Shown piece after piece: positions 45,940 to 58,979 of a DNA stretch of 64,000 nucleotides (its first letter is position 1; each line of letters starts with the position of its first letter). The DNA comes from Flavobacterium sp. GT3R68 (GTDB taxonomy: Bacteria; Bacteroidota; Bacteroidia; Flavobacteriales; Flavobacteriaceae): contig NZ_VJZK01000002.1 in assembly GCF_007109225.1 (NCBI RefSeq), positions 248,001 to 312,000 on the forward strand. The letters are read 5' to 3'. The position numbers and the translations under genes were made by a program. The notes below the pieces were generated by a model, which saw only the letters and a list, made by a program, of their open reading frames with translations, was not told where the DNA came from and did no database searches.

Positions 45940-46869
45940 TTACCTACATTTTCCGTGAAGAAAAACATTGCAGTCATACCTTGGTAGTGCTTGTGGGCGA
46001 TTAATAATATCATCAATACTTATATCTCTATGCTCGACATTAAAGGAAAAAAGACAATTGGCCTGATCAAGTAATTTTTCCGATTCGGTTGTAAAAGTAT
46101 GAAATCCTCCATAAGGATAACAAAATGTTTTTATTTCTAAATTATTTGTAACGGAGTTCAAAAAATCAAATGAACGGTTAATTTCGTCATGCTGTTCATC
46201 TAAATTTAATTTAGACATTACCGGATGTGTAACCGTATGACTTCCAATAATCATATTATTGTTACTCATTTCATTTATTTCTTCTACAGTTAAGTAAAAA
46301 TTCTCAATTGAATATAATTCTTCCGGAATTAAGTTTCTCATTAATTGATCAATTACCTTTTCTCTAAATTGATAATCAATGTAATAATTCAGAATCCTTT
46401 TTACCCATTGTGTGCTGTCATCATTTTCCTGCAGATGATATGTTAATTCCTGAAATTCAGCCACAAGATCATGGTTAAGCATCTCATTTGTAACCAATTC
46501 CATTAGCTCAACGTATACTTCATTCCCGGAATACATTCCTAAAAGTAAATGGATTCTGTGAACATCTAATAACTTATTTGTTTGGTAAGGAGCAGTCGGG
46601 ATATAAAAGATGCCCCAGAGATTTCTTTTTTTAAGTTCCTTGAAAGCATACTCATAATGGCACTTTAAACCGTCATCAAACGTTAAAAGCACCCCTTTCG
46701 GGACAACGCCTGTTTCAAAAGAATCTAAAAAATCCTCTTTGGAAACGAAGCCATATTCTCTTTCAAAAAAGTCTAATTGTTTTGCAAAATCATCCGCATG
46801 CAGATTCTTGAAGAATGGTAATTCTTCATTAAACGGACGAATATAGTGATACATTATTGCTTGAAACAT
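45940..46869 (-). CDS. Polysaccharide deacetylase (NodB) family protein
   Basis: This is a 309-residue carbohydrate esterase family 4-like protein. Motif 1 is LLTFDDGLKCHYEYA with the catalytic Asp-Asp pair, and motif 2 is the metal-binding SHTVTHPVMSKL. Motif 3 contains FCYPYGGFH. An insertion of about 90 residues lies between motifs 1 and 2. It has no signal peptide, so it acts in the cytoplasm, on a precursor rather than the finished polymer. It is separated from the formyltransferase-like gene by a single base. Removal of N-acetyl, or of N-formyl as in the related ArnD, is possible. Confidence 0.88.
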   Translation of the reverse strand: MFQAIMYHYIRPFNEELPFFKNLHADDFAKQLDFFEREYGFVSKEDFLDSFETGVVPKGVLLTFDDGLKCHYEYAFKELKKRNLWGIFYIPTAPYQTNKLLDVHRIHLLLGMYSGNEVYVELMELVTNEMLNHDLVAEFQELTYHLQENDDSTQWVKRILNYYIDYQFREKVIDQLMRNLIPEELYSIENFYLTVEEINEMSNNNMIIGSHTVTHPVMSKLNLDEQHDEINRSFDFLNSVTNNLEIKTFCYPYGGFHTFTTESEKLLDQANCLFSFNVEHRDISIDDIINRPQALPRYDCNVFLHGKCR

Positions 46870-46870
46870 T

Positions 46871-47689
46871 TTACTTTAGACTTGGGTTGCGCAAGATAGG
46901 AAATTGTAAATCAAGATTTACTTTATTATTGAGATATTTAGCAATGATTCCTGACTCAAACCTCTCATACATAGCACGTACCATCTCTTCCGTGAAGTCT
47001 TTTTTACGATAAATCTTACCAATGCTTTCTATAAAAATAATAGGATTCATATTTGCCAATTCATCAAAATGAATGATTATTTTTTCACAGACCGCTGCCA
47101 TTTCCGCTATTAATCGGTTTCCAATCTGGTGAATGGTATCACCCGGGGAAATCGTTGGGCGCATCTGATGAATAATAGTTCCGGTGTCAATTCCTGAATC
47201 GATATGCATAAATGTAGCCCCTACGCATGATAGTTCCTCATTGATAAAAGGAAAAAAATTAGTGGCAGTACCCCGATAATATGGAGATAATCCTAAATGG
47301 ATATTTACAAACTTGCCTTTAAAATCGTTTAATAAAGATGATTTTATTATGGAACAGCCAAAAGAAATAATAATATCCGGGTTTAATTCCGTGACTTCAT
47401 TTACAATTTCAGTCGAATTGATTGCACCTTTTGAAATATATTTCGGATTAGAATTATCTATTATTTTGGTACAAAACGCACCGAAAAAATCTTTTTCTGT
47501 TTGGGCCCTCATTAGCAGATGCTGAATTCTTGAATCATGGATGTCTTCGGCCATAATTGTTTGTGAAAGATTTTGTTCGGGGACTTCACAATAGCTTCTT
47601 ATAACACTGAATTCAAGCGAAGAAGCCAAAAAAGTCCTCAAAAAATCATGCCTTAGCTCATTAGCTGTAAGTATTACAATTCTTTTCAA
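46871..47689 (-). CDS. Formyltransferase-domain protein (sugar N-formyltransferase-like)
   Basis: This 272-residue protein has the catalytic core of 10-formyltetrahydrofolate-dependent transferases: NIHLGLSPYYRGTATNFFPF, with Asn and His of the active triad, and the aspartate in HIDSGIDTGTII. Relatives act on methionyl-tRNA, glycinamide ribotide or 4-amino-4,6-dideoxy sugars. In a glycan locus the sugar role is most likely. No aminotransferase making such an amino sugar is present in the window. It forms a pair with the NodB-family gene one base downstream. Confidence 0.85.
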   Translation of the reverse strand: MKRIVILTANELRHDFLRTFLASSLEFSVIRSYCEVPEQNLSQTIMAEDIHDSRIQHLLMRAQTEKDFFGAFCTKIIDNSNPKYISKGAINSTEIVNEVTELNPDIIISFGCSIIKSSLLNDFKGKFVNIHLGLSPYYRGTATNFFPFINEELSCVGATFMHIDSGIDTGTIIHQMRPTISPGDTIHQIGNRLIAEMAAVCEKIIIHFDELANMNPIIFIESIGKIYRKKDFTEEMVRAMYERFESGIIAKYLNNKVNLDLQFPILRNPSLK

Positions 47690-47695
47690 ATCTCA

Positions 47696-49093
47696 TTAAT
47701 TAGGACACCATTCGGATAGTGAATTAGCAATTCTTTTGCTTGTGTTTTTCAAGGGCTTTCCAATTTCCAGAGACAATAATTCCTTTTGAAATTTTAACCT
47801 TTCGGCAGGAAAGGAAATTGTTGCATTGATAGCATGCAATAAATCGGTTTCTGTATAGGCAATCGTAACTGCATTACTGTTTTTTACATATTCCAAATGC
47901 TTGAAACTTAAAAAACGTCTGTCATTATATAGTCCATTCTCTCCTGTTCCAAAAACAGGAAAAATTACAGGTTTATCAAAAATCATAAAATCCAGTGTCA
48001 TGGTTGAAACTACATTGATATTGATATCACTAAATTCTAAGATCGACCTTAAATCTTTTAAATCTTCAGAAAGTGGGACGCGCTGTGACCATGCTTCCTG
48101 ATGGCCTTCTCGTGACAAACTCCACTTGGGATAATTCCAATTTATAAAAGGAAATTTTTCTGCCATTTTTGCAAACCGAATAGGGTCTTCCGCTGGCGAC
48201 GTTCTAATTAAGAGATTTACATCCGGAATTTTATTATTTAACATCGCAGAAGCAATAATATCAATATATAACTCATCATTTTTGCTGGTAGAGATATCAC
48301 CGCAGCTGAAACAAATTGTTTTTTTAGAAGGATCTAAATGAAATTTCTCATGGAATGTTTTTTTATCCGATTCGTATCTTTGTAAAACATACGGTTCAAA
48401 TTGAGGGGTGCCGACAATAGCAATCTGATTTTCATCAATGGCTTTGTAAAAATGCATCAATTCCTGTTTCATTAAATCGCTCCACACTAAATAATAATCA
48501 AAATCTCCTGCCATCCTGCCTTTGGAGGCCAAATTATCCCAACTGAAAATAAAAGCTGTCGTTTTAATTTTCAATTGCTGGGCAGCATATATCAGCGGTG
48601 CAATATAGGAGGGACGCTGATGTGTAAAAAACAACATCGAAATTTTATGTTCCTGAAGCAACTCTTTGTATTTGTGTGTAATTGAATGAGAATGAAAAGT
48701 CTTTTGCTGGATTCGGTTATAACGTTGCACCCATTTTTCTGAATGGCTTTTTTTTACCCATGTGTAAATAATGCGGGTTGCAATACCACGCGGGTTAATG
48801 GATGCCGAATAATTGGCGCGGAGGTTGTCCTGAATACCGTAGTTATCATTCGCATGCATTTTCAGATGCGTCACTTCCTTCGCTTTTCTAAAAAACCAGG
48901 TTACAAAAGATTCTTTGAAAACTTCGAGCTCCACAACAGTGCAGTTTAAGTTTAAATTTTCATAAACGTGTTTTGACAAACAGGAAAAAATGATGACCTC
49001 ATCAAATGTCCGGCATGCCTCTGTAATAAAATCACTTAAAATAAAATTACGATACCCTACACCATCCGTTATTACAACTCCTAAAATTCTCAT
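47696..49093 (-). CDS. Putative GT-B-type surface carbohydrate biosynthesis protein
   Basis: This is a 465-residue soluble protein without signal peptide. The C-terminal half has features of GT-B or CDP-glycerol-phosphotransferase-like proteins: AIVGTPQFEPY between the two lobes, ICFSCGD opening the second lobe, and STMTLDFMIFDKPVIFPVFG as donor-side motif. The N-terminal lobe begins LGVVITDGVGYRNFILSDF. I do not recognise a characterised relative, so glycosyl- or glycerophosphotransfer is inferred from fold-like patterns and context only. It follows a 158-bp gap with a -7-like box and is six bases before the formyltransferase gene. Confidence 0.65.
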   Translation of the reverse strand: MRILGVVITDGVGYRNFILSDFITEACRTFDEVIIFSCLSKHVYENLNLNCTVVELEVFKESFVTWFFRKAKEVTHLKMHANDNYGIQDNLRANYSASINPRGIATRIIYTWVKKSHSEKWVQRYNRIQQKTFHSHSITHKYKELLQEHKISMLFFTHQRPSYIAPLIYAAQQLKIKTTAFIFSWDNLASKGRMAGDFDYYLVWSDLMKQELMHFYKAIDENQIAIVGTPQFEPYVLQRYESDKKTFHEKFHLDPSKKTICFSCGDISTSKNDELYIDIIASAMLNNKIPDVNLLIRTSPAEDPIRFAKMAEKFPFINWNYPKWSLSREGHQEAWSQRVPLSEDLKDLRSILEFSDININVVSTMTLDFMIFDKPVIFPVFGTGENGLYNDRRFLSFKHLEYVKNSNAVTIAYTETDLLHAINATISFPAERLKFQKELLSLEIGKPLKNTSKRIANSLSEWCPN

Positions 49094-51318: not shown

Positions 51319-52293
51319 TTAAATTAATTTATTGAACTTATTTTTTATTTTAAATATATTCTTTTCGAGTATGACATTCAACGGATAATTATCGAAATAG
51401 GCGTTTCCACCCATGAAATCCATTTTCTCTTTATTGCGGGAGGCATGAACGCCTTTTACAGCTTCCATTGCCTTTATTTGCGAGAATAAAAACGGAAATA
51501 GTTGATATTCATTAAGGACCAATTCCCTAGCCTTTGTGATAGCATCCAAATTTTCTTCCCATTTATTAGAGGCAATTATTTCTTTTAAAAACAAATCTGC
51601 ATGTTTGTCTTTGGGGTCGATTTGAATATAAGAATCTTTTGGAAAGAAATTATCAATCGAATTGCATCCAAAATACAAAGGCATAGTATAGCTCAGGTAA
51701 CAATCCATAATTTTTTCTGTCCAATAATAATCACTTTGAAAATTTTCGTAAGCAATGGCATATTTAGCCTGGTACAACACGTCCCATTTGCTGTCCACGG
51801 GATTAATCCCCCTACCATAAACATCAACAAAGGGCAACTCCTTAATACTGTCTAAAAAATCCATCCGAACATTATGACCTTTGGATGTCCTTTGATTGCT
51901 GGTGACCCAAACTATTTTATTTTCTTTCTGTATATCATCCCGTTTCAGATTCGTCAAAAAATCAAAATCTTTGTCAATATGCCATGGTAGCGCACCATGA
52001 GACAATACGTTGTTTTTCTTTATGTCTAACTGATTGAAAATTAATTTGACATTCTTATTGCCGTATTGTCTGTATTTGGATATTTCATTTGGCGGTTCCA
52101 TGCACAAATGGATAATATTATTTTTATTTACATTAATAGAAAAATCATCTTTGGGATAGTCCAGAATAATTAAATAATCGCATTCAGCAACATCATCTTC
52201 GGTAAAGGTAAATTCTTTCCACTTAAAGGAATTGTTAGGAGTTTGTCTTTTTAAATCAGGATATTTAAAATACCTTTCTATTTTTATTATCAT
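51319..52293 (-). CDS. Glycosyltransferase family 10 (alpha-1,3/4-fucosyltransferase-like)
   Basis: This is a 324-residue enzyme. The alpha-1,3-fucosyltransferase donor motif is clear: YAIAYENFQSDYYWTEKIMD followed by YTMPLYFGC. The upstream VWVTSNQRTSKGHNVRMDFLD belongs to the GDP-binding lobe. It should move L-fucose from GDP-fucose to a GlcNAc- or Glc-containing acceptor. GDP-fucose is supplied by gmd and fcl 10 kb upstream in the same locus. Members in Helicobacter and Bacteroides make Lewis-type structures; whether this one does depends on an acceptor that is not known. Confidence 0.9.
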   Translation of the reverse strand: MIIKIERYFKYPDLKRQTPNNSFKWKEFTFTEDDVAECDYLIILDYPKDDFSINVNKNNIIHLCMEPPNEISKYRQYGNKNVKLIFNQLDIKKNNVLSHGALPWHIDKDFDFLTNLKRDDIQKENKIVWVTSNQRTSKGHNVRMDFLDSIKELPFVDVYGRGINPVDSKWDVLYQAKYAIAYENFQSDYYWTEKIMDCYLSYTMPLYFGCNSIDNFFPKDSYIQIDPKDKHADLFLKEIIASNKWEENLDAITKARELVLNEYQLFPFLFSQIKAMEAVKGVHASRNKEKMDFMGGNAYFDNYPLNVILEKNIFKIKNKFNKLI

Positions 52294-52406: not shown

Positions 52407-53339
52407 TTAAAAATCAAAATACCTCAAATAATCAATCATTTTTGTTCCTTCAATATTGGGCATTAATATCCGGTTGATTTTTCCAGTCGCCTTATTAGTT
52501 CCGTTCGAATAATAATTATTAGCCAGAAAGACTCCTTTTAAACCGAAACCCTTTATCACTTGAAAAGTAAATTCATTATAGGAACCATGTGGTAATGCCA
52601 GATATGGTAATGACGAATCTGCAAATTTTTTCAATTCCCCGATAGAGGTACTCATTTCCTGAATTTGCTCCTGCTCTGTCAAATAACCCAAAGGATAATG
52701 ATTATGGGTATGCAAACCGATATCAATCAAAGGATTGTTTTCTAATTTTTTTAGTTCTTCGATTGTTAAAGAACGATAGTCTTCTCTGCCTCTAAATTCG
52801 ATATGATTTATTTTTTCCCACTCTAAAAACCACTCTTCCTTTTGACTATTATCCAATTCGGCCAGCATGTTTTCAAAATACGAGTAGCTGTATTGTTCTT
52901 TTGAAACTTTCTCAGCTATTTTTGGAAAAAAGAATAAAACATCCATTTTTTCATAATCGAACACCAGTCGGTCCCACCAAAATTCGTTTTGTGTATTTAT
53001 ATTTATAGTTGTGACAAAAACAGTTGCGGGAATTTGGTGTTTTTCTAATAATGGTAATGCGTTTATAAAGTTATCCGCGTATCCATCGTCAAAAGTAATC
53101 ACCAACCCACTTTTTTTCAAAGAGGACCAGTTGTCTGTTAATCTAAGGATTTGATATTTTTCTTTAAAATATACTAACTGCTTCTCGAAAGTAGCAGGAG
53201 TAACTGTCAGACGAGCCGTTTTCTTATCAGAAACATCACTAACTCTGTGGTACATCAAAACCAAGACAGGGCGACCGTGAAAAATCCTGTTTTTTAATTT
53301 TAAAAATCGATAATATGGTTTCTTAAGTGCTTTTTTCAC
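52407..53339 (-). CDS. Polysaccharide deacetylase (NodB) family protein
   Basis: This 310-residue protein has motif 1 LVITFDDGYADNFINA (catalytic Asp and metal Asp), motif 2 GLHTHNHYPLGYL (metal histidines) and motif 3 PYLALPHGSYNEF. The N-terminus is basic (KKALKKPYYRFLKLKNRIFHGRP) without a secretion signal, followed by VLMYHRVSD, so it is probably cytoplasmic or membrane-associated. The start codon is GTG 53339 or TTG 53342. It is a second, distinct NodB protein in the locus, preceding the GT10 gene. It removes an N- or O-acyl group from a glycan or a precursor. Confidence 0.9.
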   Translation of the reverse strand: MKKALKKPYYRFLKLKNRIFHGRPVLVLMYHRVSDVSDKKTARLTVTPATFEKQLVYFKEKYQILRLTDNWSSLKKSGLVITFDDGYADNFINALPLLEKHQIPATVFVTTININTQNEFWWDRLVFDYEKMDVLFFFPKIAEKVSKEQYSYSYFENMLAELDNSQKEEWFLEWEKINHIEFRGREDYRSLTIEELKKLENNPLIDIGLHTHNHYPLGYLTEQEQIQEMSTSIGELKKFADSSLPYLALPHGSYNEFTFQVIKGFGLKGVFLANNYYSNGTNKATGKINRILMPNIEGTKMIDYLRYFDF

Positions 53340-53436
53340 CAATATTGATATTTTGATATTATAAAATATTTATCCTGTTACTAGATGAATGTAAAAAAAA
53401 TAAAGCATAGCGTACGCTAATTGATAAGTTTTTCAA

Positions 53437-55146
53437 TTATTTATCCAAAACTACGCTATTTACCCATTGCCAGATAAAAAAACTGTTGTCCTGATTTCCT
53501 TTACAATAGTTTTGCCATATCACAGTGGTTTGTGTTGCGTTGACAAAGGTAAATTGGGAAAATTGTTCTATTTTTTCTGAAACATACCCGTTTAATTCCT
53601 TGGCAATCCATTCTCTTTGAGGAGTTTGAAGTGCCCTTTTGGGGGCCAGCGAAATTGCATCACCGAGTTTTTCCCGTACCAAGTCGCGTAACAACCATTT
53701 GGTTTGTCCATTATGCAATTTGGTCGAGGCCTTTTGGGCAAAAGCCAGTTCGACTAATCGATAATCCAAAAAAGGTTCCCGAAGTTCCGTACTGTGCATC
53801 ATGCTGATCCTGTCATTAAAACGAAGTGCCCGCGGTATTTTTGTATAAAATAAATCCCGGTACTGAAGATTCTGCAAGGCATTATCAAACGGGCTATCGT
53901 ATATTTCTTTTTGGGCCGAATGTTTAAAACCATCTGTTAAAGCTTCCGGTCGAACCGGGCTCGTAGTAAGTCCTTGTATGATATTATTGCTGTTATTGTG
54001 ATAATAATCGTAACCAGCCCATGCCTCATCCATACCCTGCCCATCAAGTATAACCTTGATACCATTTGCTCTGGCTTCTCTAAACAACAGACTGTATGCC
54101 AAGGTTGGAAACCCTCCAAAAGGTTCGTCCTGATAATAGCTTACTTCTTCAATTAATTTAGGTATTGCTTCCTGCGTCAATAGAACTTTATGAAGTGGAT
54201 ATTGCGTCTTTTCCATTAATTCATGAACCCAGGGTAATTCATCATAATTTTCATTACCGGTATAAAATGTAAAGGCTTCAATAGATTGTTCGGAAGGCAG
54301 GTTCTCGTGTACTAAACTGATCAAAGTCGAAGAATCTAAACCACCGCTTACATTCATCCCTAAAGGAACATCCGCCCGGAAACGCAATTGGATAGCGTCC
54401 TTCAATAAGGATTCATATTGTATTTTCAATTCGGCTTCAGGCAATTGATCGATCATCGCAATTCTTTTAGGAAAGTCGTACCATTTTTGGATGTGGAGCG
54501 TCTGCTTTGTTATTTTCTCGGCAAAAGAAACTTCCATAAAATGTCCTCCAGGCAATTGATGAATGGATTCCCAAAATGTTTCGTAAGGCATTCCATAGGT
54601 CCCGTAAACAAAATAATTAGCCCAGACTTTCTGATTTTTAATTTTAGGGATTCCGGCTGCAAAAAGGGTTTTGATTTCACTTGCAAAATACAATTGATTT
54701 TCCCAAACCGTATAATAGAAAGGCTTTACGCCAAAACGGTCGCGGGCCGCAAATAATTTTTCTTTTTCAGCATCCCAGATTACAAAACTGAACATGCCGT
54801 TGAGCTTTTCTAATGCCTCATTACCCCAGTAAAGATAAGCTGCCAGAAGTACTTCGGTATCAGAATGGGTTTTGAACTGATAAAAGTCCTTCAGCTGTTC
54901 TTTCAATTCCAGATAATTATAAATCTCGCCATTAAAAATAATACGATAGTCACCACAATTACTGATCATGGGCTGATTCGCCTCATCAGACAGATCGATA
55001 ATACTCAATCGGTTATGGCCTAAAACAATTTTATCGTCGTTCCAAACATTAGTGGCATCAGGTCCCCGGTGCTTTTGCGCCTCGAGCATCGCCAAAATAG
55101 TGTCGCTATTACTCTGTTTTCCTAATATGCCAGCAATACCACACAT
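53437..55146 (-). CDS. asnB: Glutamine-dependent asparagine synthase-type amidotransferase
   Basis: This is a 569-residue protein. The glutaminase domain begins with the nucleophile Cys2 (MCGIAGILG) and has LGHNRLSIIDLS and IIFNGEIYNY. The synthetase domain has the ATP pyrophosphatase loop VSGGLDSSTL and DEAWAGYDYY. The family makes asparagine, but copies inside glycan loci (WbpS type) are thought to amidate sugar carboxyl groups. Here the start overlaps the NeuA stop by one base, tying it to the nonulosonic-acid genes, so amidation of an acidic sugar is a reasonable inference. A free-standing housekeeping role cannot be excluded. Confidence 0.92.
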   Translation of the reverse strand: MCGIAGILGKQSNSDTILAMLEAQKHRGPDATNVWNDDKIVLGHNRLSIIDLSDEANQPMISNCGDYRIIFNGEIYNYLELKEQLKDFYQFKTHSDTEVLLAAYLYWGNEALEKLNGMFSFVIWDAEKEKLFAARDRFGVKPFYYTVWENQLYFASEIKTLFAAGIPKIKNQKVWANYFVYGTYGMPYETFWESIHQLPGGHFMEVSFAEKITKQTLHIQKWYDFPKRIAMIDQLPEAELKIQYESLLKDAIQLRFRADVPLGMNVSGGLDSSTLISLVHENLPSEQSIEAFTFYTGNENYDELPWVHELMEKTQYPLHKVLLTQEAIPKLIEEVSYYQDEPFGGFPTLAYSLLFREARANGIKVILDGQGMDEAWAGYDYYHNNSNNIIQGLTTSPVRPEALTDGFKHSAQKEIYDSPFDNALQNLQYRDLFYTKIPRALRFNDRISMMHSTELREPFLDYRLVELAFAQKASTKLHNGQTKWLLRDLVREKLGDAISLAPKRALQTPQREWIAKELNGYVSEKIEQFSQFTFVNATQTTVIWQNYCKGNQDNSFFIWQWVNSVVLDK

Positions 55147-55847
55147 TAAATTTGAGATAAAATATTAGGTAATTTTTGTTCGGCCAAAAACCAGTCTCCC
55201 ATCGTATCTATATTAATGTATAAATCTGGGTTGCTTTCGATATAACTTAAAGAATCCCCATAAAAAGACTCCTTTTTGATAGTTTCCATATTGGTAATAT
55301 AGATGGATCCGTCTCTAAAAAAAGCTGGAGGAAGTTCCTGTCTGCGTTTGATAATTTCTTTTTCACCTGTGGAAATTCCTAAAAATCCGGACTCATTCAG
55401 TTCAAAAACCCAATGGGGATTCAATTCATGCGGAACGGTGAGTACACTAATCAGGGCGTCTGCTTTTTTTTCGGTAAAAGCAGCAATGGCCTTGTCAATA
55501 AAGCCCTTTTCTCTAAAGGGAGAGGTAGGCTGTAGAAGGCAAATGGCATCAAAAAACTCGCCTTGTTCTTCTAAAAAAGCCACAGTATGTTGCACCACCG
55601 CAATACTCGACGCGGCATCTGTTGCCAAGTGTTCCGGCCGAACAAATGGAACTTCCGCGCCAAAATTTTTGGCCATTTCAATAATGGCATCACTATCACT
55701 GGAAACAATTATTTTGGATAATAATTTACTTTCCAAGGCCTGCTGGATCGTATAGGCAATCAAAGGTTTATCTCCGAGAATTTTAATATTCTTATCCGGA
55801 ACTCCTTTAGACCCTCCTCGCGCAGGTATTATGCCCAATATACGCAT
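55146..55847 (-). CDS. neuA: CMP-nonulosonic acid cytidylyltransferase (NeuA family)
   Basis: This 233-residue enzyme activates a sialic-acid-like sugar with CTP. The nucleotide-binding start is IIPARGGSKGVPDKNIK, followed by QPTSPFR and the metal-site NIDTMGD near the end. The length equals the short cytidylyltransferase-only NeuA, PseF and LegF enzymes. It is coupled to neuC (TGATG) and to asnB (TAATG) by one-base overlaps. Whether the sugar is Neu5Ac, legionaminic or pseudaminic acid is not fixed by this gene alone. Confidence 0.92.
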   Translation of the reverse strand: MRILGIIPARGGSKGVPDKNIKILGDKPLIAYTIQQALESKLLSKIIVSSDSDAIIEMAKNFGAEVPFVRPEHLATDAASSIAVVQHTVAFLEEQGEFFDAICLLQPTSPFREKGFIDKAIAAFTEKKADALISVLTVPHELNPHWVFELNESGFLGISTGEKEIIKRRQELPPAFFRDGSIYITNMETIKKESFYGDSLSYIESNPDLYINIDTMGDWFLAEQKLPNILSQI

Positions 55848-57007
55848 CAGTATGTTATTGTTTTATGGAATTGTAAAGGTAATGTATTCAATATCTCTGC
55901 AATTTTAACTCCCGCATCTCCTCCTCCATATACATCTGAAGTTTTGGATTTTCCGTTCTGCAGAATAGCATTTACTGCAGTAATAATTTCATCTTTATCG
56001 TAGGTAACATCAACTACATTCTCTCCTCGGTCACGTCTGTTCTGTCTGGAACCGATATTAATTACCGGGACACCTAAAAAAGCACATTCCCGGATACCGA
56101 CACTGGAATTACCCAATAAACCGACTGCGCTATTTAATAAAACCAGAAAATCATCGCCCTCCATATTCTTGAAGAAATGGACATTCTCTAATTTATTTTT
56201 TTCCCTGAAACTTCTGATACCGGTTGAAGTCCCGTCGGCACCAGCATCAACGTTTGGCCAAAACCACAACGTCGGGATATTCAGTTCGTTAATTGCCAAA
56301 AGCGTTTCTTCGATATGTTTTCTGGAATTTTGATATTCTGTGGTTACAGGATGCTGCATTACGACCAAATACCCTTTCGAAAGATCGGGTTGTGAGCCCA
56401 CACCACCATATTTTTGATAAGGATTGAAATTAAGTGTTTTTATAGTGGAAACTTCTAAAGCAATATCAATGGAAGGACAGCCTGTATTGAAAACAAAATC
56501 AGGGTCCTCTCCTAATTTCAACACTCTCTCCTTGGCATTTTCTGACGCTACAAAATGATAATCCGATAATTTGGTTATTGCATGGCGCACTTTCTCGTCA
56601 ATGTTTCCAGTTACTTCTCCTCCCTGGATATGAGCCAGCGGGATATTCATGTAAGCAGCGGAAATAGCCGTTGCCATGGTTTCAAAACGGTCGGCTACGG
56701 TTACGACAATATCCGGTTTGAGATTATCAAAGACTGTAGAAAGTTCCAAGATGCCAATTCCGGTTGTTTTAGCAGAAGCCGTAAGGTTCTCTCCTTCCAA
56801 AACATTAAAAACTTTGGCAGCAATGCTGAACCCGTCCTTTTCAATATAATTTACCGCCGATCCATACCGCTCCAGTAATGCCGATGCGGCAATGATGAGT
56901 TGTAACTCTAAATCGGGATGATTTTTTATGGCCTGCAATACCGTTTTTACGCGGCTATAGGATGGTCTGGCAGTGATGACCACCGCTATCTTACGTTGTA
57001 TTTTCAT
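55847..57007 (-). CDS. neuC: UDP-GlcNAc 2-epimerase, hydrolysing (NeuC family)
   Basis: This 386-residue GT-B-fold enzyme hydrolyses UDP-GlcNAc, or a 2,4-diacetamido analogue, with inversion at C2 to give the free mannosamine sugar. Motifs are VVITARPSYSRVKTVLQAI, HIQGGEVTGNIDEKVRHAITKLSDYHF and LGNSSVGIRECAFLGVPVINIG. It differs from the non-hydrolysing WecB encoded 3 kb upstream. The start overlaps the neuB stop by 4 bases and its stop overlaps neuA by one. Because no LegB/LegC-type dehydratase or aminotransferase is present here, Neu5Ac synthesis is the simplest reading. Confidence 0.93.
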   Translation of the reverse strand: MKIQRKIAVVITARPSYSRVKTVLQAIKNHPDLELQLIIAASALLERYGSAVNYIEKDGFSIAAKVFNVLEGENLTASAKTTGIGILELSTVFDNLKPDIVVTVADRFETMATAISAAYMNIPLAHIQGGEVTGNIDEKVRHAITKLSDYHFVASENAKERVLKLGEDPDFVFNTGCPSIDIALEVSTIKTLNFNPYQKYGGVGSQPDLSKGYLVVMQHPVTTEYQNSRKHIEETLLAINELNIPTLWFWPNVDAGADGTSTGIRSFREKNKLENVHFFKNMEGDDFLVLLNSAVGLLGNSSVGIRECAFLGVPVINIGSRQNRRDRGENVVDVTYDKDEIITAVNAILQNGKSKTSDVYGGGDAGVKIAEILNTLPLQFHKTITY

Positions 57008-58020
57008 TCTAAATCTTCTTCATTTAAAAAATCCCACTGAATTTTGTCAAATTTAAGTTTTTTACCAATTACTTCATGGTATTTACTTGCCAAAATGCCA
57101 TAGCCTTTTGGTTTTTTGGCTTCCAAATCTTCAAAAGTTATGGAATGTCCCTTGGGCAAATTTTTGTTTATTGCTAATGATTTTTCAAATATCTGTTTCA
57201 ATGTTTGAAAGTCTGAGTTGTTATTCTTATCGATGGGTTGGGTCATAGCCAATGTAATATTCTGAACTGCAAAAACCAAATCTTTGGTTTCCTGAATCGT
57301 CAGTGATGCTTTACTGTCAGGTCCAAAAAGCTGTCGGTCAAAAACCACATGAAATTCTAAAATAGAAGCTCCCAGTGCGGTGGCAGCGATGCAGGTCTCC
57401 ATTTTTGCGGAATGATCCGAAAAACCTACAGGCACCTGATATCTTTTTTGCAATTCGGCAATAACATTTAAACCATATTGTTCCGGTTTTGTGGGATAGG
57501 CTGTAGTGCATTGCAATATAGAAAAATCAACATTTCTGGATTTCAGAAAATTTACAGTCTCATCCATTTCAATATATGAACTCATTCCAGAGGATAAAAT
57601 TACTGGTTTCCCGGTCTGCGCGATTTTCTCTAAAATTAAAAAATTATTCACCTCCCCTGATCCGACTTTATAACATTTCACCCCAATTTCTTCTAGCCAT
57701 TCTACTGCCAGATTACTGAACGGAGAACAGATAAAATCGAGTCCAACTTCATCACAACGTTGTTTGATACCTTTCCATTGTTCCAAAGAAAATCCCATGC
57801 GCTTCCAATAATCGAATCGTGTTTCGTCCTCTACAGAGAACTTCACGCGAAAGGGTTCAAATTCGCTGCTCTCCGCTTCGGCGATGTGCATTTGGAATTT
57901 AACAGCATGGACGCCTGTTTTCACTATCGCATCAATATAAGAATATAAAATCCCCAGACTGCCTTCGTGTGCTTGCCCAATCTCAGCTATAATATATGGA
58001 AATGGTTTTTTTAGTGACAT
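57004..58020 (-). CDS. neuB: N-acetylneuraminate synthase family protein (NeuB)
   Basis: This 338-residue enzyme condenses a mannosamine-type sugar with phosphoenolpyruvate. The TIM-barrel part opens IIAEIGQAHEGSLG and has AVKFQMHIAEAESS, CSPFSN, VGSGEVNN, LSSGMSS, GFSDHS and LEFHVVFDR. The C-terminal SAF (antifreeze-like) domain is YGILASKYHEVIGKKL. The second motif residue after AEIG is Ala where many NeuB have Asn. ATG 58020 is used; a TTG at 58041 would add seven residues and a 4-base overlap with the upstream GT2. The product may be Neu5Ac or an analogue. Confidence 0.92.
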   Translation of the reverse strand: MSLKKPFPYIIAEIGQAHEGSLGILYSYIDAIVKTGVHAVKFQMHIAEAESSEFEPFRVKFSVEDETRFDYWKRMGFSLEQWKGIKQRCDEVGLDFICSPFSNLAVEWLEEIGVKCYKVGSGEVNNFLILEKIAQTGKPVILSSGMSSYIEMDETVNFLKSRNVDFSILQCTTAYPTKPEQYGLNVIAELQKRYQVPVGFSDHSAKMETCIAATALGASILEFHVVFDRQLFGPDSKASLTIQETKDLVFAVQNITLAMTQPIDKNNNSDFQTLKQIFEKSLAINKNLPKGHSITFEDLEAKKPKGYGILASKYHEVIGKKLKFDKIQWDFLNEEDLE

Positions 58021-58037
58021 TTTATGTTTCGGGTTAA

Positions 58038-58979
58038 TCAAACTGGTTTTGATGAATCGGCAGAAGAAGTTTCATCTTCCGGAGACCAATATAATTTTGT
58101 AGTAGGCAATTTACTAAATTCTTCGAACTCTTTTACCGATAATCGGTTACGATTCCCAATTATCCTGGGTATATTAATTAATAAATCTCCGATTGCCTGT
58201 AAAATTGCAATTGCTACCTGAAAATCCCCTTTAAATACTTTTATTTTTATCTGCACCCATAAGGTATAGACTAATTTTTTCGGAATCACTTTCCATGGAA
58301 AAAACATAAAATACAAATACCATCCTGAACGAATGGCCCTTCGCACTCGCTGTCTATAATCCGTGTCCTTTTTCCGACCTTTGATATCGACGCGATGGTT
58401 GGCCAAAACTTCTGGTAAATAAATAATATCCCAGCCTTTTTTAAACAAGTGAAAAGACGCAAAATCTTCTTCCCCATAAAATATGAACCAGGCCGGGTAA
58501 TCGGGTATATCTTTCCATGCTTTCATATTCCATGCATGACCACCTCCCACAAATCCTCTTACTTTTTCGGATTGGTCTGAAGTATACACCGTTTCGGGTT
58601 CTTTCCTACCCCAAAACATTCGAAAGGCAACGATACCACAACGTTCATTTTTATCAAAACACTCTTCTATTTTTTCCAGAGGATGCTCCGATAAAAAATG
58701 GGCGTCATCATCTAAAGAAATAGCGTACAGTCCTTTTGTTAACTCTAAAAGGACATTCCTGCTGTAAATTAGACCGCGGCTTTTAGCATTTCGGAGCAAT
58801 TGTATTTTTGGGAAATTTTCAGCAACCATTGCATAGGTTCCATCAGTGGAACCATCATCGCAAATAATACATTCAACATCCGGCCTGTCCAGCAGATTCT
58901 GGATTTTATCCAATGTGAACTTCAAATCAGGCTTCCGATTTTTGGTAGTAATCAATATAGAAAATTTAATCTGGGACAT
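58038..58979 (-). CDS. Glycosyltransferase family 2
   Basis: This 313-residue GT-A enzyme has the opening FSILITTKNRKPDLKFTLDKIQ, metal site AISLDDDAHFL and the acceptor-side FFYGEEDFASFHLFKKGW in the form GEEDFA. The C-terminus carries a basic, hydrophobic patch (GWYLYFMFFPWKVIPKKLVYTLW) that may touch the membrane. It is placed directly before neuB, so a role in placing or preceding the nonulosonic acid is possible, although transferases for CMP sugars are usually not GT2. Confidence 0.9.
   Translation of the reverse strand: MSQIKFSILITTKNRKPDLKFTLDKIQNLLDRPDVECIICDDGSTDGTYAMVAENFPKIQLLRNAKSRGLIYSRNVLLELTKGLYAISLDDDAHFLSEHPLEKIEECFDKNERCGIVAFRMFWGRKEPETVYTSDQSEKVRGFVGGGHAWNMKAWKDIPDYPAWFIFYGEEDFASFHLFKKGWDIIYLPEVLANHRVDIKGRKKDTDYRQRVRRAIRSGWYLYFMFFPWKVIPKKLVYTLWVQIKIKVFKGDFQVAIAILQAIGDLLINIPRIIGNRNRLSVKEFEEFSKLPTTKLYWSPEDETSSADSSKPV

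Follow-up and report, generated by a model that had tools for sequence, protein, structure and literature searches.

A formyltransferase gene and a NodB2-type deacylase gene one base apart in Flavobacterium sp. GT3R68: a candidate N-acyl exchange cassette for nonulosonic acids

Formyltransferases and NodB-fold hydrolases are known to be encoded together in 4-amino-4-deoxy-L-arabinose (Ara4N) synthesis, as ArnA and ArnD (E. coli K-12, L106). PseJ (6ci2, 6ci4), the formyltransferase of the pseudaminic acid pathway, acts on an aminotransferase-derived amine and needs no deacetylase, and the de-N-acetylases PplD, IcaB, and PgaB act on polymers, outside the membrane. In the haloarchaeon Halorubrum sp. 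PV6, from which 5-N-formyl-legionaminic acid has been reported, the nonulosonic acid genes are accompanied by HrrPV6_1050, numbered between LegG and NeuD and named a possible formyltransferase; the main text of that report contains no word starting with "deacet" and names no deacetylase (PMC6137143). A passage of PMC6388019 lists N-formyl among the known C5/C7 substituents. Here, we describe a formyltransferase gene (FT) and a NodB-type gene (NodB) in a window of 64,000 nt of Flavobacterium sp. GT3R68 (contig NZ_VJZK01000002.1, positions 248,001 to 312,000). With a probability of roughly 0.55, we propose that they form a co-inherited cytoplasmic N-acyl exchange cassette. Its substrate would be a nonulosonic acid or a precursor, either free or nucleotide-bound, from which an acetyl group would be removed before a formyl group is added.

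The pair occupies the following positions of the window:

46871..47689, minus strand: FT, a sugar N-formyltransferase of 272 aa with a TTG start (Formyl_trans_N)
45940..46869, minus strand: NodB, a predicted cytoplasmic NodB2-type de-N-acylase of 309 aa with an ATG start (Polysacc_deac_1)
46300..46578, minus strand: the helical insertion of NodB, approximately residues 98-190, carrying a VHxIH motif (model secondary structure)

The stop codon TAA of FT is followed by a single A and then by the ATG of NodB. The preliminary description, made from the sequence of the window, had placed the two genes one base apart and called them fused in an operon within a glycan locus; the spacing, the adjacency, and the setting all hold, with glycosyltransferase genes surrounding the pair and NeuA-, NeuC-, and NeuB-type genes nearby, but the two are separate reading frames and not a fusion. 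FT matches the Pfam family Formyl_trans_N at 57.3 bits (cut-off 26.1) and NodB matches Polysacc_deac_1 at 65.7 bits (cut-off 23.1).

Co-occurrence of the two genes in other genomes, which had been set beforehand as a check on the preliminary description, was found at most loci with a related FT. A search with the single FT sequence gave no relatives in the genome contigs, and a profile made from a four-row alignment (A1) gave 132, the best 80 of which were kept; with the window they make 81 loci, selected solely on the basis of FT. At 69 of the 81, FT has a NodB from the subfamily of the window NodB no more than 150 nt away; the count is 69 of 78 when the loci in which the contig ends in or at FT (L039, L060, and L072) are set aside. 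Where a NodB match is present (71 loci), the order is FT followed by NodB at 59, NodB followed by FT at 10 (one with 3.7 kb between them), and tail-to-tail on opposite strands at two. At L034 the start of NodB precedes a masked stretch, at L036 a broken NodB stands beside FT with its match 248 nt away, and at L092 NodB lies 3.7 kb from FT. Six loci are without an adjacent NodB (L020, L049, L059, L064, L066, and L071), and NodB is found elsewhere in the genomes of L020, L059 (broken), and L064. The contig of L049 ends 268 nt past FT and shows no NodB in its three forward frames. This short stretch (L049:10835-11102) holds, by eye, a transposase-like reading frame, and an insertion may have replaced NodB or cut it off. 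In Algoriphagus oliviformis (G582), FT stands alone, and some 36 kb along its contig NodB is part of a NeuB-NeuC-NodB-NeuA-AsnB operon.

The relatives of FT are spread over Bacteroidota, Planctomycetota, Nitrospirota, several groups of Proteobacteria, Helicobacter, Prochlorococcus, candidate phyla, and haloarchaea, and Algoriphagus, Gillisia, and Nonlabens are among the genera with carriers. The pair is sporadic: FT occurs in four of 199 genomes of the family and four of 395 of the phylum, the window genome being counted in each. In the reverse direction, a search for NodB across 296 genomes of the phylum returned six matches. FT adjoins NodB by coordinates in three of these genomes (G000, which is the window genome, G304, and G392), and the matches in G400 and G431 are weak and lie in other loci. 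In the sixth genome, G372, NodB is near NeuA, N-acetyl sugar amidotransferase, HisH, HisF, and LegC-like genes, with short-chain dehydrogenase/reductase (SDR) and AMP-ligase genes close by and NeuB genes ~30-40 kb away on the same contig; FT was not found in G372, which we take to have been included in the phylum search. A NodB without FT is expected of a deacetylase rather than of a deformylase. Three haloarchaeal genomes carry the FT/NodB pair (L042, L062, and G750). Two samples that partly overlap (293 and 392 genomes) were drawn from the order to which the L042 genome belongs; close FTs occur there only in G591 and G750, and the FTs of G966 and G934 are more distant and have no NodB. As a control, 18 lower-scoring haloarchaeal FT places (L115-L132) showed NodB in none of their short flanks. 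Searches for phage carriage gave no phage match for FT and three weak IMG/VR loci; among plasmids, none matched the FT of L042, and one partial distant match was obtained for that of the window.

Protein distances, compared over the 41 loci with all four genes, correlate at 0.89 for FT and NodB and at 0.75 for NeuB and NeuC, in contrast to 0.27 for FT and NeuB and 0.24 for FT and NeuC; relatedness inflates all these values, and it is the contrast between them that counts, not their level. The two genes thus travel together, with little dependence on the adjoining core pathway, as would be expected of an add-on modification cassette.

The relation of both proteins to characterised enzymes was judged from profile scores, a comparison of folds, and the correlation of distances, in place of a family tree. 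NodB begins with MFQAIMYHYIR and has no hydrophobic stretch at its N-terminus, as is the case in the NodB set of 70 proteins (top 17-residue mean 1.45). Its AlphaFold2 (AF2) model has a mean predicted local distance difference test (pLDDT) score of 93.7 and shows an insertion of ~90 residues, helical at approximately residues 98-190, between TFDDG (residue 63) and SHTVTH (residue 210); the absence of a signal and the insertion of this size had both been read correctly in the preliminary description. The ten nearest folds, with Z scores of 21.1-25.7, are entries of PplD, IcaB, PgaB, and BpsB and three Bacillus proteins, after which Z falls to 13.1. PplD leads at 25.7, in an alignment that covers 209 of the 309 residues, followed by IcaB and PgaB at 23.2 each. 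In contrast, ArnD (8t0j) reaches a Z score of only 10.7, with a root-mean-square deviation of 3.7 over 160 aligned residues, level with chitin deacetylases and most peptidoglycan deacetylases (Z ~9-11). The grouping with chitin or peptidoglycan deacetylases named in the preliminary description as a test is therefore found in part: NodB is kin to the de-N-acetylases PplD, IcaB, and PgaB (Z 21-26) and stands apart from chitin and most peptidoglycan deacetylases.

According to passages of PMC10967932, a permuted class, NodB2, covers eight of these ten structures, the remaining two being further PgaB entries, and carries its catalytic histidine motif MT5 (VLMYH) N-terminally, followed by MT1, MT2 (HTX2H), and MT3 (AYPYG), whereas ArnD is classed in a separate, NodB1-like family. 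The window NodB has this motif order, with IMYH, TFDDG, HTVTH, and CYPYG. H8, D65, D66, H211, and H215 are kept in all 54 rows of the NodB alignment (A4), as is H104 of the VHxIH motif in the insertion, and H107 is kept in 53. These rows are the window and 53 of the 63 listed NodBs, chosen by the motif YHY, so the invariance of Y7-H8-Y9 is partly due to the selection, which drops L036, L093, L095, and L096, the last three of which read FHY. The window NodB gave no match to the ArnD model NF011923 at E ≤ 0.001, on which E. coli ArnD scores 523 bits; hhalign gave a probability of 0.1, that is, no match, between the NodB and E. coli ArnD profiles; and among the 40 PDB sequences matched by the NodB profile (E ≤ 0.01), PplD, IcaB, and PgaB were present and ArnD was not. 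The model of the PgaB poly-N-acetylglucosamine deacetylase, TIGR03938, was not reached either (34.4 bits; cut-off 321.9). By its model and its sequence motifs, NodB is of the NodB2 type found in de-N-acetylases and not ArnD-like. It differs from PplD, IcaB, and PgaB in having no signal peptide and in the helical insertion with the invariant H104, which may cover the pocket and enclose a small substrate.

The AF2 model of FT has a pLDDT of 94.4. N129, H131, and D168 are present in all 47 rows of the FT alignment (A3; 46 of the 53 listed FTs and the window); Asn-His-Asp is the catalytic triad of formyltransferases. The closest solved relative of FT by sequence is PseJ (75 bits), followed by ArnA and WbkC, and the PseJ match spans the catalytic core only (profile positions 101-209). 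Foldseek ranks WbkC and ArnA first, then entries that include Fmt and PurN, and PseJ 18th; on fold alone, the nearest kin of FT is thus not decided. The formyltransferase domain of ArnA, to which FT is homologous, is matched by the FT profile at 97.9% probability, but FT does not reach the cut-off of the ArnA model NF005998 (43.7 bits; cut-off 777). It likewise stays below those of the dTDP-4-amino-4,6-dideoxyglucose formyltransferase model PRK07579 (49.1 bits; cut-off 238), which we take to be comparable to VioF/QdtF, and of the curated PurN and Fmt models.

For the sugar concerned, a nonulosonic acid or a precursor of one is the likeliest candidate. NeuA-, NeuC-, and NeuB-type genes are grouped on the strand of FT, ~7.5 kb from it, with an AsnB-type gene next to them:

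57004..58041, minus strand: NeuB-type nonulosonic acid synthase (PF03102, 233 bits; TIGR03569, 289.4 bits, under the cut-off of 399.65)
55847..57007, minus strand: NeuC-type hydrolysing UDP-sugar 2-epimerase (TIGR03568, 386.5 bits; cut-off 235.9)
55146..55847, minus strand: NeuA/PseF-type CMP-nonulosonate cytidylyltransferase (PF02348, 95.4 bits; TIGR03584, 170.1 bits, under the cut-off of 205.7)
53437..55146, minus strand: AsnB-type glutamine-dependent amidotransferase, next to NeuA (TIGR01536, 402.5 bits; cut-off 267.1)

The NeuB of the window is the only one at E ≤ 1e-25 in its genome (3.06 Mb), and the neuraminate synthase cut-off that it misses is reached at L026 (402.6 bits). Relatives of the AsnB-type amidotransferase are found at 20 of the 80 other FT loci. 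At least one of NeuA, NeuB, and NeuC lies within 10 kb of FT at 54 of these 80 (33 of the 46 with full flanks), all three at 40, and at L026 and at L035 of Nonlabens xylanidelens the pair is placed between NeuA and NeuB-NeuC. For the 36 loci without a nearby NeuB, 34 genomes were searched, those of L038 and L049 being omitted, and 32 hold a strong NeuB elsewhere. About 25-29 kb past the window, in the same genome, genes for a dehydratase, a LegC-like aminotransferase, a NeuD-like acetyltransferase, and a sugar-phosphate transferase form a cluster (L111:15494-19854), which is likely a diacetylbacillosamine-type set.

The C5 nitrogen of nonulosonic acids comes from N-acetylglucosamine (GlcNAc) and is already N-acetylated, in the NeuC/NeuB as well as the LegG/LegI pathways. 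The acetyl group must therefore go before a formyl group can be placed there. Since the profile search found an aminotransferase near only 10 of the 80 FTs, with none in the window, the free amine is probably supplied by NodB. Together with the de-N-acetylase fold and residues of NodB and its adjacency to FT, this leads us to read the pair as deacetylating and then formylating. The substrate would be a sialic-, legionaminic-, or pseudaminic-type nonulosonic acid or its precursor, at the stage of precursor, free acid, or CMP-sugar. NodB, as a metal-dependent NodB2-type de-N-acylase, would strip the GlcNAc-derived N-acetyl group, presumably at C5, and FT would move a formyl group from N10-formyl-tetrahydrofolate onto the freed amine, giving an N-formyl nonulosonic acid. 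We counted it in favour of a nonulosonic substrate that PseJ is the closest solved sequence relative of FT. The nonulosonic acid of the window would be of the neuraminic or legionaminic type; the LegC-like cluster of its genome, together with LegC-model matches in other carriers, suggests that it may be legionaminic, in which case FT could use the other nitrogen.

Several findings weigh against an exchange cassette for nonulosonic acids. All four seed FTs of the A1 profile adjoin NodB, so that the pairing is a trait of this FT subfamily and not of sugar formyltransferases generally, and NodB was found nowhere in four of the eight exception genomes checked (G601, G603, G589, and G604; L066, L071, L039, and L072), although FT is cut by the contig end in G589 and G604. 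NeuB occurs in the short flanks of four of the 18 distant haloarchaeal FTs that lack NodB. No NeuA, NeuB, or NeuC is present in the available DNA of 26 of the 80 loci, 13 of them with full flanks; G585 has weak NeuB matches only and G587 has none; and NeuB is common regardless of FT, in 131 of 198 genomes of the phylum. G215, a genome without NeuB, holds a divergent, overlapping FT/NodB pair (L153:8279-10098), where the two genes may act on some other sugar. Some match to the LegC model was found in 26 of the 29 carrier genomes searched (one passes the cut-off), the cluster past the window could supply FT with a 4-amino sugar, and LegB and LegC are both present in the Halorubrum sp. PV6 region, according to the text of PMC6137143.

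Three alternatives were considered. The preliminary description had read the pair after ArnA and ArnD: FT would formylate an aminotransferase-made amino sugar and NodB would later deformylate it, so that the glycan would carry a free amine. The pairing of the genes, the profile match of FT to the ArnA domain, and the LegC-like aminotransferases in the window genome and the other carriers agree with such protection and deprotection. However, NodB is unlike ArnD in sequence, NCBIfam model, and fold class, no aminotransferase was found near 70 of the 80 FTs or in the window, and in G372, where no FT was found, NodB adjoins NeuA and amidotransferase genes, all of which makes the analogy improbable. 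What survives of it is that the pair probably concerns the N-formylation of an amino sugar; a mechanism like that of ArnA/ArnD is less likely. Alternatively, the two enzymes could make independent edits to one diamino sugar, with FT acting in the manner of PseJ on a C4 or C7 amine made by LegC or PseC and NodB removing the acetyl group from the second nitrogen so that another acyl group or an amidino group can be attached. PseJ as the closest relative by sequence, the 10 loci with an aminotransferase, and those with genes for N-acetyl sugar amidotransferase, HisH, and HisF (seven of 80 each) would suit this, but the tight co-inheritance of FT and NodB better fits coupled steps and most loci have no aminotransferase nearby; we consider it unlikely.

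The substrate might also lie outside the nonulosonic acids, for example, a nucleotide sugar of the GlcNAc or N-acetylfucosamine (FucNAc) type, the nonulosonic acid genes being merely neighbours in surface-glycan loci. The pair of G215, the loci without NeuA, NeuB, or NeuC, the weak tracking of NeuB by FT and NodB distances, and the general abundance of NeuB in the phylum are what such a substrate would lead one to expect. It accords poorly with the 54 loci that have these genes within 10 kb, with the strong NeuB in 32 of the 34 further genomes, and with the operons of L026 and L035, and we give it a small chance. We prefer the acetyl-for-formyl exchange on a nonulosonic acid or its precursor.

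The N-acyl modification of nonulosonic acids is known; what is unusual here is a NodB2 protein in a predicted cytoplasmic role. If the exchange cassette is real, it would give the NodB2 fold a role on small molecules in the cytoplasm and explain how some microbes make formylated sialic-acid-like sugars. The two genes are a testable candidate for the removal of the acetyl group, and would allow N-formyl sialic-acid-like sugars to be predicted from genomes. A wider version, to which we assign slightly less than even odds, is that the cassette is mobile and cytoplasmic across many bacterial phyla and some haloarchaea, that it turns N-acetyl into N-formyl nonulosonic acids with NodB acting on monosaccharides or nucleotide sugars and not on a polymer, and that its NodB is a candidate deacetylase for 5-N-formyl-legionaminic acid. 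Neither "deacetyl" nor "formyl" occurs in the nonulosonic acid papers PMC7371886, PMC3438082, and PMC13317340. Among open-licence papers, which give weak evidence of absence, we found none that links a formyltransferase with a polysaccharide deacetylase and none on N-formylneuraminic acid; PMC9966250 proved unrelated, and PMC12239567 deals with a deacetylase that is secreted.

The seven FT/NodB loci with an N-acetyl sugar amidotransferase of the WbuX type are L058, L070, L073, L075, L077, L079, and L082, several of which also have HisH and HisF; these enzymes could convert N-formyl to N-formimidoyl groups. A 385-aa protein at L150, taken by eye for an acyltransferase, matched no family in Pfam or NCBIfam and is not claimed as one. 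In the window, the gene immediately upstream of FT has relatives at 23 of the 80 FT loci, a frequent companion whose product is possibly a transferase of the modified sugar:

47696..49093, minus strand: PF04464-like protein (PF04464, 26.6 bits; cut-off 22.1)

A second NodB-type deacetylase gene (52407-53342), separate from the FT-linked NodB, adjoins a GT10 (fucosyltransferase-like) gene at 51319-52293.

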